In this document: piece after piece, positions 4,068 through 19,288 of the stretch
Layout of the letters: each line of letters starts with the position of its first letter
Position numbering within the stretch: position 1 is the stretch's first letter
Source: a virus
IMG/VR virus record: IMGVR_UViG_3300008120_000431
Span: 1 to 34,967 of that record
DNA: 34,967 nucleotides
Strand: one strand, 5' to 3'
The notes under the pieces: generated by a model
Told to the model about the DNA's origin: nothing
Database searches by the model: none
What the model saw: only the letters and a program-made list of their open reading frames with translations
Translations under genes and position numbers: made by a program

Positions 4068-5486
4068 TTAAAGAGCGTAACGATCGCTCGATACGGTCTT
4101 AACCATGATAGACTCTGGCGTCATACCATCGAGGTCAGCCGAGAGGACCGACTTCATGATAGCAGGACTGAAACCAGAGACCAGAGCAACACCCTTTTCG
4201 TCGAAACGAACAGGAACGTTGTCGGCTGCGTTGAGGTTCCAGAAGACGACAGCAGGTACAGCGTACCCAGCGTCTTCATACTTGCGACGAATCATCTGCA
4301 TTGCAGAGTCATCGAAACGAGTGCACTCGTTGAACTGCATGTCCGACATGATCAGGAGAACCTGAGGCATATCTTCTGCTGCAACACGGTTAGTAGTTGC
4401 AACGCGCAGAATCTCTTCGAAAGCACCGTGCAGGTTGGTAGACATCTCCCAGTGGGAGCGCTCCATCTGACGGACCTTCTGCGAGAGAGTACCCTTGACG
4501 TGCTCGAACTTCGGACGAGTCGAGAAGGTCAGGAACAGATCCTTGAACGGACCAGTGTTCTTATCTGCACAGTAAAGACCGAGCGAGACAGCAACATCCA
4601 GACACGTAGTCTGAGCCTTACCGAGAACATGCTTACCCCCGATAGGAGAGGTCATCGACCCCGAGACGTCAACCAGTGGCAGAACCATGGCGTCACCGAT
4701 GTAGTTAGGCAGAGCCTTCCACTGTTCATCGGCAAGAGCAGAGTCACCGTGGCGAACGTTCTTAACGATGTCGTACGGATAAACCGCGCCAGCGTTAACC
4801 TTCGCAACCTTCGGGTCGCCCTTCTTCAGAGCTTCCTTATAAGCGGTGAATAGCTCAGGAGCGTTCTTACCGAACGCCTTCGAGTAGCGAGACATAGCCA
4901 GCGAAGGAACATGCGAGAAGTTAATTGCTTCCCACTCCTTAGCGCACATCTGCTGCTCAACAACCTTAGTTAGCTCAACGAGCCGCTTACGGTAGAACTT
5001 AGGGCTCCAACCGAATGCTTCTCGCAGCTCTGCAGCCTGCGGACCCTTACGAGGCATCCACTTAGCGCATAGACCGTTACCAGCCTCGAGCGCCTCACGG
5101 ATGAGGTTGTACGCGACAGACTTGACCTCGGCGTCTTCGAAAACAAGCAGGTCGTCCCAACGGCCGATCTCTGCAGTGTTACGAAGGATGCGAGTGTTCA
5201 GAAGCTCATGCTTGTAGTTCTTCTCAAGGAACTTGAGAGTCTTACGATAGAGCTCACGCTCACCTGCACCACCGCGGACATCACGAGCCCACTGCGCTAC
5301 ACGCAGAGCCAGCTCGCGGTCCTCGTGATAAGCCTTCTCGAACTGCTTCGAGATATCCTTACCACGTGACGCACCGATCTTGAAGAACAGATCAGTGGTG
5401 TTAGATAGAGACGACTTGAGAGCCTTCATACCATTCCAGGTACGAGCTTCAACTTCAGTGTTTAGTACTGCATTCTTAAAAGTCAT
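4068..5486 (-). CDS. Ro60/TROVE-like RNA-binding protein with vWA domain (DUF2828-type)
   Basis: The product has 472 aa. Residues 1-260 are helical and carry the signature RDVRGGAGERELYRKTLKFL together with EIGRWDDLLVF, typical of the TROVE/DUF2828 group, whose best-known member is the HEAT-repeat ring protein Ro60. Residues 268-470 are a von Willebrand A domain with an intact MIDAS: PLVDVSGSM (DxSxS), a Thr in STNLHGAF, and an Asp in LLIMSDMQ. Ro proteins bind misfolded non-coding RNAs in their central hole and Y RNAs on their outer face. The gene has its own promoter (5686-5714) and a 190-base leader with two tRNA-like folds. Good SD (GGAG, 8 bases). DUF2828 proteins are less studied than classical Ro60, so Y-RNA binding here is an inference. 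Confidence 0.85.
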   Translation of the reverse strand: MTFKNAVLNTEVEARTWNGMKALKSSLSNTTDLFFKIGASRGKDISKQFEKAYHEDRELALRVAQWARDVRGGAGERELYRKTLKFLEKNYKHELLNTRILRNTAEIGRWDDLLVFEDAEVKSVAYNLIREALEAGNGLCAKWMPRKGPQAAELREAFGWSPKFYRKRLVELTKVVEQQMCAKEWEAINFSHVPSLAMSRYSKAFGKNAPELFTAYKEALKKGDPKVAKVNAGAVYPYDIVKNVRHGDSALADEQWKALPNYIGDAMVLPLVDVSGSMTSPIGGKHVLGKAQTTCLDVAVSLGLYCADKNTGPFKDLFLTFSTRPKFEHVKGTLSQKVRQMERSHWEMSTNLHGAFEEILRVATTNRVAAEDMPQVLLIMSDMQFNECTRFDDSAMQMIRRKYEDAGYAVPAVVFWNLNAADNVPVRFDEKGVALVSGFSPAIMKSVLSADLDGMTPESIMVKTVSSDRYAL

Positions 5487-5497
5487 AATATTTCTCC

Positions 5498-5561
5498 AGG
5501 TTAAACTTTTTGCGTTTTAGATTACAAGTCTAGTGCATATATTGATTGCGGAACTTAACCT
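5498..5561 (-). ncRNA. tRNA-Thr-like fold in the leader of the Ro-like gene (element B)
   Basis: A 7-bp stem (AGGTTAA at 5555-5561 with TTAACCT at 5498-5504) encloses a perfect Thr(UGU)-like anticodon arm at 5517-5533 (TAGA/TCTA with loop CTTGTAA). The D-arm is not canonical and the T-arm is reduced to a few base pairs, so it cannot be a normal tRNA. The 3' strand ends directly against the SD of the Ro-like gene (5494-5497), so folding could affect translation. An alternative hairpin GCATATA/TATATGC (5535-5541/5561-5567) overlaps it. Confidence 0.45.
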
Positions 5562-5570
5562 ATATGCTAC

Positions 5571-5671
5571 GGGTTGATCGTGCCTTACCCGGGACCACCC
5601 AGCACATCGACCGAATCGAACGGTCCAGACTCCTGTTATCAAAAGAATAGTTCGTATGCTGAACTCAACCC
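5571..5671 (-). ncRNA. Y-RNA-like candidate upstream of the Ro-like gene (element A)
   Basis: A 101-base segment is closed by a perfect 7-bp stem (GGGTTGA/TCAACCC). Immediately inside the 5' strand is the hairpin GTTC-AGCATAC-GAAC. In the middle there is a perfect tRNA T-arm: GACCG, loop TTCGATT, CGGTC. A further GC-rich hairpin (CTGGG-TGGT-CCCGG) lies in the 3' part. The predicted transcription start of the promoter at 5686-5714 falls a few bases before the stem, so this is the first element of the Ro-like transcript. Bacterial Y RNAs have a Ro-binding terminal stem plus a tRNA-like module; the resemblance is structural only. Confidence 0.5.
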
Positions 5672-6200: not shown

Positions 6201-6278
6201 TGGCGCGCGCAGTGGGATTTGAACCCACGCATGACAAGATTTTAGAGATCTCCGCTCTAACCACTGAGCTATGCGCGC
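6201..6278 (-). tRNA. tRNA with amber anticodon (CUA), suppressor type
   Basis: The cloverleaf is complete: acceptor GCGCGCA/TGCGCGC, D-arm GCTC/GAGC with loop AGTGGTTA, T-arm GTGGG-TTCAAAT-CCCAC, discriminator G and encoded CCA. The anticodon arm GAGAT-CTCTAAA-ATCTT gives CTA at 34-36 after the invariant T33. Reading TCT (Arg) would need C at position 33 and would break the stem. The variable loop is 7 nt, longer than usual. The amino acid it carries cannot be read from sequence. Confidence 0.75.
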
Positions 6279-6407
6279 ATCTATTTATATCAACGGGATG
6301 TCGGTTCTTTATTGGGAACCTAGGGAAGACCTAGTCTCATTTCGGTGAGACACCTAGATCAGGCGACCGCAGTCCCTGAACATCGTGCTAGAGTATCCGC
6401 ATATGGA

Positions 6408-6452
6408 TTACGCAGCTAGGCGCATATCCATGAGGTCGTTGTCATTAGCAGC
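6408..6452 (-). other. tmRNA tag-peptide reading frame (AANDNDLMDMRLAA)
   Basis: Fourteen codons and TAA, starting at resume codon GCT (6450-6452) after TGTC. The peptide begins AANDN and ends LAA, the usual form of alphaproteobacterial tags recognised by ClpXP. The middle residues DLMDMR are the variable part. Confidence 0.9.
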
Positions 6453-6501
6453 GACATTTAAGTTTATGGCCACTCGGCCAGCGAATCAGTCTCGAACCGC
6501 C

Positions 6502-6690
6502 TTATTCCGTCCCAGTCGATCCTAGTTCACCCCCATCATGAGTACAGAGTAGTTCACTTGCCTTGTTCACCCATATGAAAGGAAGAACCCCGTGAACCAG
6601 TAGAACGAAAGAAATCTTCCACGCTCTTAAAAGATGCTGCATGTATGTATACCCAGTATCTTTTAGATGCTTCATCTTCTCTGTACTCAT
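6502..6690 (-). CDS. Small DUF6356-like membrane protein encoded inside the tmRNA intervening segment
   Basis: The 62-aa frame starts at an ATG whose A is the last base of the tmRNA CCA end (6690). Residues 7-48 read like the DUF6356 family: a YMQHLLRAW motif, a hydrophobic stretch and HGVLPF followed by a Ser, predicting a single membrane helix. The last ten residues run into the 5' acceptor strand of the tmRNA coding piece and stop at TAA (6502-6504). No SD is separable from the tmRNA acceptor sequence (GGAGG-like complement is absent), so expression is uncertain. An RNA processed into mature tmRNA would release or destroy this message. Confidence 0.6.
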   Translation of the reverse strand: MSTEKMKHLKDTGYTYMQHLLRAWKISFVLLVHGVLPFIWVNKASELLCTHDGGELGSTGTE

Positions 6691-6759
6691 GGTGGAGGTG
6701 ACGGGTACTGCCCCCGTGTCCTCAGAACCTTTATCGTTGATTGTCAACAACTGATAATT

Positions 6760-7092
6760 TTATATAGCTTCATTTTGTTTATATTGCAACAGTTTTTTCG
6801 CTCTTTCTTTTACCCATTTATCAAAAGGTAGAAAAGCTCCCGATGCACCAGTCCAATCACGGAAAGCATCATCGTAGAAACCTATATCTATCTTTTGCTT
6901 TTGTAGCTCTACAAGCTCATCGGCCCACTGCTGCCACTTGTGGTCATCCACAACGTTATCGTCGAGCTCATAGTAGAGGTAGGAGTGTACCAGCATCTGT
7001 ATACGTCTCTGACGGATCTTTTCCGAGAGCGTTTGCACCGCATTAACTTTCGGATCATCTTCATCTTCAAAAAAAGCATCAAGCGTCTGCAT
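6760..7092 (-). CDS. Hypothetical protein with ligase Ia-like helical motif
   Basis: The product has 110 aa from MQTLDAFFEDEDD. An upstream in-frame start exists, but the chosen one has GGAAAG at the right distance and overlaps the previous gene by only 14 bases. The central part (RIQMLVHSYLYYELDDNVVDDH) resembles the N-terminal Ia domain of NAD-dependent DNA ligases in pattern (YYELDD, then a D-H turn), a segment that occurs alone in many phage proteins. No catalytic lysine domain is present, so no ligase activity is suggested. It ends eight bases before the estimated tmRNA 5' end. Confidence 0.7.
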   Translation of the reverse strand: MQTLDAFFEDEDDPKVNAVQTLSEKIRQRRIQMLVHSYLYYELDDNVVDDHKWQQWADELVELQKQKIDIGFYDDAFRDWTGASGAFLPFDKWVKERAKKLLQYKQNEAI

Positions 7093-18056: not shown

Positions 18057-18138
18057 TGGAGCCCCAGACAGGATTCGAACCTGCATTTTCGTTCCAGTTA
18101 CCTTGGTCTCGGTTCGTAGCCGAGCGGGATACTGGGGC
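18057..18138 (-). tRNA. tRNA-Arg(ACG) lacking a D-arm
   Basis: Acceptor GCCCCAG/CTGGGGC, anticodon arm CTCGG-CTACGAA-CCGAG (the classic Arg-ACG arm), T-arm GCAGG-TTCGAAT-CCTGT, discriminator T, CCA. Only seven bases (TATCCCG) separate the acceptor from the anticodon stem, so there is no D-arm. About 23 bases with a weak CCA/TGG hairpin lie between the anticodon and T-arms. Confidence 0.75.
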
Positions 18139-18144
18139 ATTAAA

Positions 18145-18725: not shown

Positions 18726-18824
18726 AGGATCGTTTGTTTAGGTGGGAATCGAACCCACTCCGATCGTTTAGAAGACGATTGCTCTACCGATGAGCTACTA
18801 TAAGTTCTTTGCTGAACCGATCCT
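18726..18824 (-). ncRNA. tRNA-Arg(UCU)-like module inside a terminal stem (element D, Y-RNA-like)
   Basis: A 7-bp stem AGGATCG/CGATCCT closes the element. Next comes GTTC-AGCAAA-GAAC, then a tRNA-like body: D-arm GCTC-ATCGGTA-GAGC, anticodon arm ATCGT-CTTCTAA-ACGAT, T-arm GTGGG-TTCGATT-CCCAC. The would-be acceptor strands pair poorly and there is no CCA. A terminal stem plus tRNA module is the design of bacterial Y RNAs. It may otherwise be an odd tRNA-Arg. Confidence 0.6.
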
Positions 18825-18833
18825 AAAACTGAC

Positions 18834-18898
18834 GGGAATGTGTTTGTCCGCCAAGACATCCATATTGTTTAGCGTTATTTGTTTGCTGTAACATTCCC
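18834..18898 (-). ncRNA. Small RNA with 7-bp terminal stem (element C)
   Basis: GGGAATG pairs perfectly with CATTCCC. Just inside, GTTA-CAGCAAACAAA-TAAC resembles the first hairpin of elements A and D. A second hairpin TGTC-TTGGCG-GACA follows. There is no T-arm and no anticodon arm. It lies between tRNA-Asp and element D. Confidence 0.5.
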
Positions 18899-18979: not shown

Positions 18980-18994
18980 AATAATGACTTATTA

Positions 18995-19023
18995 AATATA
19001 CCCTGCTCTCTGAAATAAATCAA
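18995..19023 (-). promoter_or_regulatory. Promoter of the main tRNA array
   Basis: TTGATT, 17 bp, TATATT, 15 bases before tRNA-Asp, the first gene of a dense 13-member tRNA run. Confidence 0.65.
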
Positions 19024-19288
19024 CTGCTATATGTACACTTAAGCAATCTTTTTATTCCTCGGGCGAATTTCGGAGTCCGGGGCTTCCGCTCCTAAGCCAT
19101 TGCCAAGGTTATTTCAGTGAGGTACGATGGCCCGATCTCACCTAGCATAGTCCGTCGACTAGCGATACCCCTAGCAGGGCATATTTAATAAGTCTCTTAT
19201 GGCGGGCGCCCCGAAGAGCAACCCGCCATAGAACTCTATCCAACGATGTCAAAGAGCAGGAGCGACGTTTCCGCCGCTCCATAGATTT
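19024..19288 (-). ncRNA. Unidentified structured RNA region between two promoters
   Basis: No reading frame is supported. Read on the minus strand it holds, in order, GGAGCG/CGCTCC, a 9-bp stem TATGGCGGG/CCCGCCATA over an inner GCTC-TTCG-GGGC, TAGTC-GACG-GACTA, GTGAG/CTCAC, and GGAG/CTCC over CGG/CCG. It starts right after a promoter. It is not tmRNA, and I cannot match it to RNase P, 6S or SRP RNA. Confidence 0.45.

Follow-up and report, generated by a model that had tools for sequence, protein, structure and literature searches.

The virus record analysed here over its whole length (34,967 bases, hereafter the window), which derives from a T4-like phage with genes for gp32, gp59, RNase H and PhoH, contains four members, elements A to D, of a large family of phage RNAs in which a covarying terminal stem encloses exchangeable modules, and whose members are linked to the gene for a protein with a predicted Ro60 fold. 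We think it likely that this family is related to the Y RNAs, that its common part serves as a handle for Ro, and that its modules are addressed to tRNA-binding proteins, a decoy or docking role being the one we favor. The original prediction had proposed a phage Ro/Y system consisting of a Ro-like protein and a family of three RNAs (A, C, and D). That finding is genuine and reaches further than was claimed: the common design holds, and the tie between the RNA family and a Ro60-fold protein is strongly supported, but the elements number four, B (5498–5561) having been overlooked, and the idea of such a system is not new.

Where Y RNAs number one or two to a genome, the family would add arrays built on a common handle with exchangeable tRNA modules, in phages whose hosts are Gram-negative, Gram-positive, or cyanobacterial. 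It provides a likely ligand for phage Ro proteins, suggests what some of the puzzling "tRNA arrays" in large phages may be for, and includes named, cultured phages in which a link to tRNA-targeting defence is testable.

Four elements on one strand

The four elements and the Ro-like gene all lie on the minus strand, with A and B directly upstream of the gene and C and D 13 kb from it, within a tRNA array. That array numbers 28 called tRNAs; the window also has a permuted tmRNA, and the Rfam matches above threshold in the window belong to tRNA, tRNA-like, and tmRNA families only. The features are as follows.

4068–5486, minus: gene for the Ro60-like protein, 472 aa (Pfam DUF2828 and DUF7788; PHROG 850, "RNA-binding protein")
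5498–5561, minus: element B, handle with an anticodon-like arm; 22.6 bits (in the training set of the model described below)
5518–5532, minus: anticodon-like arm of B, TAGA-CTTGTAA-TCTA, anticodon UGU
5571–5671, minus: element A, handle with a permuted elbow (T-arm, then D-arm-like hairpin); 22.0 bits (in the training set); fold z-score −1.0; a relative occurs in locus L005
5580–5605, minus: D-arm-like hairpin of A, GTGC..GCAC, following the T-arm (permuted order)
5609–5625, minus: T-arm of A, GACCG-TTCGATT-CGGTC
18726–18824, minus: element D, handle with an acceptorless D-, anticodon, and T-arm module, anticodon UCU; 32.7 bits with the leader-trained model; RF00005 match; fold z-score −2.8
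18818–18824 and 18726–18732, minus: terminal stem of D, AGGATCG/CGATCCT
18742–18758, minus: T-arm of D, GTGGG-TTCGATT-CCCAC
18763–18779, minus: anticodon arm of D, ATCGT-CTTCTAA-ACGAT, anticodon TCT
18781–18795, minus: D-arm of D, GCTC-ATCGGTA-GAGC, from the sequence and the RF00005 match
18834–18898, minus: element C, handle with a pseudoknot insert; 30.4 bits (model not trained on C); fold z-score −2.6
Ends of C, minus: terminal stem GGGAATG/CATTCCC, then GT; perfect, 8 bp
18845–18874, minus: H-type pseudoknot of C, CGCTAA..TGTC TTGGCG GACA; the pattern is shared by 17 elements

The perfect 7-bp terminal stem that the original prediction had described for A, C, and D was verified at the positions above, with CAGCA just inside it and the stem of C reaching 8 bp. 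Element A, which lies 84 nt ahead of the start codon of the Ro-like gene, carries its T-arm and then its D-arm-like hairpin without an acceptor, a partial permuted tRNA-like domain, and folds only weakly better than shuffles. B lies between A and the Ro-like gene, its 3' end abutting a GGAG that is presumably the ribosome-binding site of that gene; the folding energy of B alone is no better than that of shuffles.

Other RNA features lie on the same strand. A permuted tmRNA of the two-piece type occupies 6317–6793 (RF04321, 85 bits), and permuted phage tmRNAs are present in loci L005, L007, L008, and L012 as well; adjoining the window's copy is a tRNA called by ARAGORN with the anticodon CTA, of the amber suppressor type (6201–6278). 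Inspection by eye found a D-armless tRNA-like gene that ARAGORN missed, with a 7-bp acceptor, the anticodon ACG, and a long variable region (18058–18140). A 221-nt region bordering the tRNA array (18980–19200) is closed by a 22-bp stem (GACTTATTAAATATGCCCTGC.. / ..GCAGGGTATATTTAATAAGTC) and folds strongly (−78.6 kcal/mol, z-score −5.0); it has no Rfam match and is predicted from its folding to be a further structured RNA. Locus L001, whose Ro gene region is identical to that of the window, carries a long element 808 nt upstream of that gene (GGGATG GTTACAGCA .. CATCCC GTTGAT), of which the window seemingly keeps only the 3' part, at ~6292–6420 beside the tmRNA.

A covarying stem and a conserved CAGCAA

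The family was delineated from 80 viral loci with relatives of the Ro-like ORF, the 230 nt upstream of each start being inspected; most of these loci show one to three tandem units of a common plan. A first descriptor gave 108 sense hits within 500 nt upstream of a Ro gene and few per bin elsewhere or in antisense. A loose stem-hairpin descriptor, whose 24 hits in the window were not above shuffles, was rejected and replaced by a position-weight and stem model trained on 91 units at most 400 nt upstream of Ro genes, to which the window contributed A and B and neither C nor D. Over the window and 96 loci, the trained model made 258 hits of at least 8 bits, as against 2 in local shuffles; the further relatives on whose existence the original prediction had staked itself are thus abundant. 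The hits that could be placed relative to a Ro gene share its orientation, with one exception. In the window the hits are exactly four, in descending order D, C, B, and A, with D ranked first although it was not in the training set. Across viral contigs the non-redundant elements number 421.

The consensus reads GTTTT, AGGNNNN, GTTCAGCAA, the insert, AAAAAGT, NNNNCCT, and GTTGAA, the common part being AGGNNNN/NNNNCCT, which forms the terminal stem of 7 bp, the conserved CAGCAA next to it on the inner side, and GT after it. To test the stem, hits were collected from viral contigs with patterns that cover only the 5' half (GTTTTAGGNNNNGTTCAGCAA and GTTTTAGGNNNNCTACAGCA). The complementary 7-nt strand followed by GT was present in 112 of the 133 distinct viral hits that had enough sequence, compared with a mean of 17.9 and a maximum of 27 in 200 trials in which NNNN was exchanged among the hits. 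In a test of specificity with a slightly shorter pattern, the 3' strand and GT accompanied 96 of 107 hits in viral contigs and only 1 of 114 usable hits (0.5 expected by chance) in genomes of bacteria and archaea totalling 257 Gb. The elements are restricted to viruses, and bacterial chromosomes are essentially without them; the sole exception, L513, resembles a genuine unit.

Common outer ends, exchangeable contents, and tandem arrays would also be expected of mobile cassettes, with the handle as their recombination site and the tRNA pieces as passengers. We regard this reading as very improbable. The stem sequence varies from unit to unit with its complementarity kept, unlike a recombinase site; the units hold the orientation of Ro; and their contents are structured RNA, nearly always tRNA-like or small hairpins. 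The variable yet complementary stems likewise led us to reject an integron attC or recombination site as a candidate.

The original prediction also gave the elements a common hairpin with CAGCA in its loop (GTTC-AGCAAA-GAAC and the like). This part did not hold up: 245 of the 421 elements can form at least 3 bp there, as against 244 after shuffling, and the core of C is a pseudoknot in place of the hairpin. A conserved helix at this position is accordingly rejected, and CAGCAA is conserved as sequence inside the stem, not as a hairpin loop.

Modules that resemble parts of tRNA

What the stem encloses falls into several classes, of which the window offers one example each of four: an anticodon arm in B, a T-then-D elbow in A, an acceptorless module in D, and a pseudoknot in C. 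Short inserts make up 224 of the 421 units. In 98 of them the loop of the best hairpin is 7 nt long, versus 28 in shuffles, and 71 of these 98 loops are of the canonical anticodon type, with U33 and a purine at 37 (4.2 in shuffles). Among 114 re-scored units, the anticodon most commonly displayed is UUU (Lys; 20), followed by UGU (13), UGA (9), UGG, GUU, and CAU (7 each), and UCU (6); 69 of the 114 share their exact loop sequence with a tRNA called in these data, versus 26.9 with shuffled loops.

Permuted modules, absent from shuffles, comprise 40 units with a T-arm and then a D-arm and 34 with a 7-bp acceptor between the two (74 of 421 together). Shuffles also yield none of the acceptorless D-anticodon-T units (14), of those with anticodon and T-arms (13), or of those with a T-arm and acceptor (10). 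In the pseudoknot class, 17 units fit the pattern, about 14 of them convincingly by eye, versus 1.3 in shuffles. Its core in element C pairs CGCTAA with TTGGCG and TGTC with GACA, and across the class the first stem covaries (CGCTAA/TTGGCG, GCTA/TAGC, GATCA/TGATC, GAACA/TGTTC) with TGTC/GACA constant. A further 106 short and 65 long inserts are unclassified.

Element D matches the Rfam tRNA model (RF00005) with 53.9 bits at 18734–18804, and it is not called as a tRNA by ARAGORN run on the window. No more than 4 of the 7 acceptor pairs are possible, and D lacks the 7-bp acceptor stem and 3' CCA position of a tRNA. This upholds the claim that the D-, anticodon, and T-arms housed in D come with no usable acceptor. 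Its likeness to bacterial Y RNAs, claimed at the same time, extends to the enclosing terminal stem and not to the arrangement within, since D has the order D-anticodon-T with an anticodon arm, whereas the bacterial Y RNA YrlA has a permuted T-acceptor-D.

With such a tRNA score and a place in a tRNA array, D could be read as a degenerate or unusual tRNA-Arg(UCU) gene, and A and C as chance look-alikes. We give this reading scarcely any credence, and its look-alike part is already refuted. That D is an ordinary tRNA-Arg is made unlikely by the conserved enclosing stem together with the absent acceptor, whose strands are unpaired. The same stem and CAGCAA recur in other phages around acceptorless modules that mostly carry UCU and elsewhere UCC, GCA, CAU, or UUU, and D heads the window's hits under a model not trained on it. 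Some of these relatives have the identical end AGGATCG-GTTCAGCAA. Pair counts were not drawn from the alignment of this class, because the 3' stem strand is misplaced in some of its rows; the evidence on the stem comes from the 5'-half search described above.

Two further kinds of unit were noticed. In loci L003, L004, L005, and L013, permuted tRNA units have an acceptor loop with an insert of ~130 nt after CACCA, apparently closed by a stem of its own. A recurrent class of long units in L031, L039, L051, L110, L147, and others contains GTGAG-TTTCGAGT-TCTCAC and, between this and the 3' stem strand, an A-rich stretch that includes AAAAAGTAGG. Automatic tRNA callers overlook or mislabel RNAs of the family, and they seem to mis-assemble the permuted units. 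Deposited annotations of a 432-nt "tRNA-Arg" in Klebsiella KP2025 (L088, 4863–5294) and of 113–121-nt "tRNA-OTHER/Ser" in Cronobacter S13 (L082, 6881–7123) overlap the Ro gene at its start or else units of the family.

A Ro60-like protein and its gene

The protein encoded at 4068–5486 is predicted to have the full Ro60 fold, a helical-repeat ring with a vWA domain. Its AlphaFold2 model (pLDDT 82, pTM 0.78) aligns over its whole length with Ro60 (1yvr; Z 20.4, rmsd 3.9, 394 residues), and also with Ro60 of Thermus phage phiLo (9l5y; Z 15.7) and Rsr (2nvo; Z 12.3); chains that consist of a vWA domain only score well under Ro60, with Z ~10, and Foldseek concurs with the Ro60 assignment. The MIDAS residues of the vWA metal site (D273, S275, S277, T350, D382) are invariant in 22 sequences. 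Judged by its sequence, the protein is far from TROVE and falls in the DUF2828/DUF7788 branch: the TROVE profile PF05731 has no match anywhere in the window, and a profile reaches TROVE structures at only E 5e-4. The gene is found in 681 of 50,697 GenBank phage records.

Co-occurrence of the RNAs with the Ro-like gene, a check named in the original prediction, was confirmed in a sample of 41 viral contigs of at least 60 kb picked by element sequence alone. A full-length Ro-like gene is present in 33 of them, compared with 3 of 31 control contigs of at least 60 kb that bear tRNAs (Fisher p = 2e-9, or 6e-9 without three contigs already in the Ro set); the controls hold 3 further weak partial vWA matches, and the 8 element contigs without a Ro gene may be fragments. 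The controls were picked by a tRNA D-arm pattern in place of thymidine kinase, a first marker that gave 3 loci only.

Position tells a related story. Among 74 Ro loci with upstream sequence, a unit lies within 1 kb upstream in 55 and ends at most 60 nt from the start in 47, most often at 20–29 nt; the 19 loci with no element within 1 kb upstream belong mostly to one clade (L057, L061–L079). A relaxed scan of 16 annotated phages placed units at most 1 kb from the Ro-like gene in the majority, among them Escherichia VpaE1 (three AGACC..GGTCT units), Mycobacterium LeBron, and phages of Staphylococcus, Enterococcus, Listeria, Campylobacter, Klebsiella, Stenotrophomonas, Cronobacter, and Synechococcus, at a density of 1.28 per kb near Ro versus 0.32 elsewhere. 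The same scan gave no convincing unit in Serratia BF or Aeromonas phiAS5 and only a weak one in Vibrio nt-1. In complete genomes the strict model finds nine units in Aeromonas LAh_6, four in Pseudomonas Milchi, and two in LeBron, in a single orientation within each genome.

Proximity of this kind, together with the run of B into GGAG, is what one would expect of cis-acting leaders, through whose copy at its own ribosome-binding site Ro represses translation, the distant copies regulating neighbors or having spread by recombination. As an account of the whole family this is unlikely. Most elements lie away from start codons, in arrays of up to six per kb or, as in LAh_6, nine to a genome; C and D are inside a tRNA array far from Ro; and repression has no need of elaborate tRNA modules. 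Within our preferred reading of a Y-RNA-like family, autoregulation by the leader copy nonetheless has a place: Ro would probably limit its own synthesis by feedback at that copy.

An RNA-repair operon was considered and rejected. A general RNA-repair pathway is unsupported because RtcB (0 of 41 element contigs, 0 of 31 controls) and Rnl1 (5 of 41, 4 of 31) are no commoner in element-bearing contigs. In Listeria LP-083-2 (L091) the Ro-like gene does lie ~1–4 kb from RtcB and an RNA ligase, and in Serratia BF an RNA ligase is encoded two genes upstream of it.

What the RNAs may do

The elements are probably made as stable small RNAs. We infer that Ro binds the stem and CAGCAA, since no other part is shared by every unit and this one accompanies the gene. 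The probable binding site of the Ro60-like ring is the handle, made up of the 7-bp terminal stem, the CAGCAA that it encloses, an A-rich stretch on the 3' side, and GT. This handle would hold an interchangeable module that copies a tRNA part, be it an anticodon arm, a permuted T-acceptor-D, or an acceptorless D-anticodon-T, or else a pseudoknot. While bound to Ro, the RNAs would display these pieces to host or phage proteins that bind tRNA. We favor a function as decoys or docking sites for tRNA-acting enzymes, anticodon nucleases foremost.

In its fullest form, which we put forward tentatively, the proposal is that in large phages a Ro60-like ring carries tRNA mimics that cannot translate, forming a library with one member for each target. 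The arms would occupy or absorb host anticodon nucleases such as PrrC, AriB of PARIS, Cas13a-like enzymes, and VapC, and the tRNA bodies and acceptorless tRNAs would serve for other tRNA-binding defence or processing enzymes, amounting to counter-defence built on the architecture of Y RNAs. The decoy idea is favored because defence enzymes cut anticodon loops, PARIS cutting tRNA-Lys (PMC11455837) and Cas13a uridine-rich anticodons (PMC11042736), and because the Lys UUU arm is the commonest. The role is a speculative one. Counting against it, the published precedent for decoys is that of nuclease-resistant phage tRNAs, not soluble arms, and Salmonella YrlA, itself not cut, has only been proposed as an inhibitor of an anticodon nuclease (PMC7790460).

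A tether is about as likely as a decoy. The elements would then be Y RNAs in the strict sense, Ro binding the terminal stem and the module tethering an effector such as PNPase, with different modules for different tRNA-binding enzymes; this is a serious possibility, if short of probable. Precedents are the tRNA-like domain of YrlA, RYPER, and the YrlA-PNPase pairing (PMC8394870). The predicted Ro60 fold of the window protein agrees with it, as do the permuted-tRNA members that match the YrlA model over its full length, though always under the gathering score of 69. We know of no binding of PNPase to inserts that consist of an anticodon arm alone, which weighs against the tether, and the many anticodons displayed fit many targets better than a single effector.

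Comparison with known systems

The closest known system is YrlA (RF02553) with Rsr. Both YrlA and the phage units have a terminal stem formed from the two RNA ends, both lie beside a gene for a Ro60-fold protein, and the permuted module of YrlA (T-arm, acceptor, D-arm) is that of many phage relatives, a permuted tRNA-like domain being present in the 74 units counted above and in part in A, with D in normal order and B and C having none. Permuted-tRNA units of Enterococcus iF6, LeBron, Klebsiella KP2025, and L018 match the Rfam model of YrlA over its full length with 34–48 bits. The gathering score of 69 bits is reached by none of 18 records, the best scoring 47.8 bits, and A, B, and C have no match to the model in the window; by this strict test the phage units do not count as members of YrlA. 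In the YrlA consensus, terminal stem and tRNA-like part are joined by an internal loop with AUGC, and at that loop the phage units have CAGCAA. Unlike YrlA, the phage units form tandem arrays, and they include classes outside its model, namely the anticodon arm alone, the acceptorless D-anticodon-T, and the pseudoknot.

Another point of comparison is the nuclease-resistant tRNAs of phages. These resist host anticodon nucleases (PMC10264068), as does T5 tRNA-Lys in the case of PARIS (PMC11455837), and they resemble the elements in carrying the anticodon arms of often-attacked tRNAs. The elements differ in being unable to translate, as they have no acceptor, or no anticodon, or an arm only.

Phage Ro60 systems with Y RNAs likewise combine a Ro60-fold protein with tRNA-like RNAs alongside; the present protein differs from the TROVE-type phage Ro60 in its DUF2828/DUF7788 branch and in matching no TROVE profile. 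Chen et al. 2014 reportedly described Y RNAs close to Ro60, in bacteria as well as phages, one of which has a tRNA-like domain. Mycobacteriophage records annotate a "Ro-like RNA binding protein," and TROVE proteins are mentioned in a survey of jumbo phages (PMC7824862). In the literature searched, with a coverage that omits many journals, we found no account of the arrays, the common handle, or the anticodon-arm units. Phage Ro/Y pairs as such are not new; the parts that appear to be new are the arrays, the common handle, and the anticodon-arm class. Taken with the comparison to YrlA, the phage units look like a divergent branch of Y-RNA-like RNAs, with another loop motif and many new modules.
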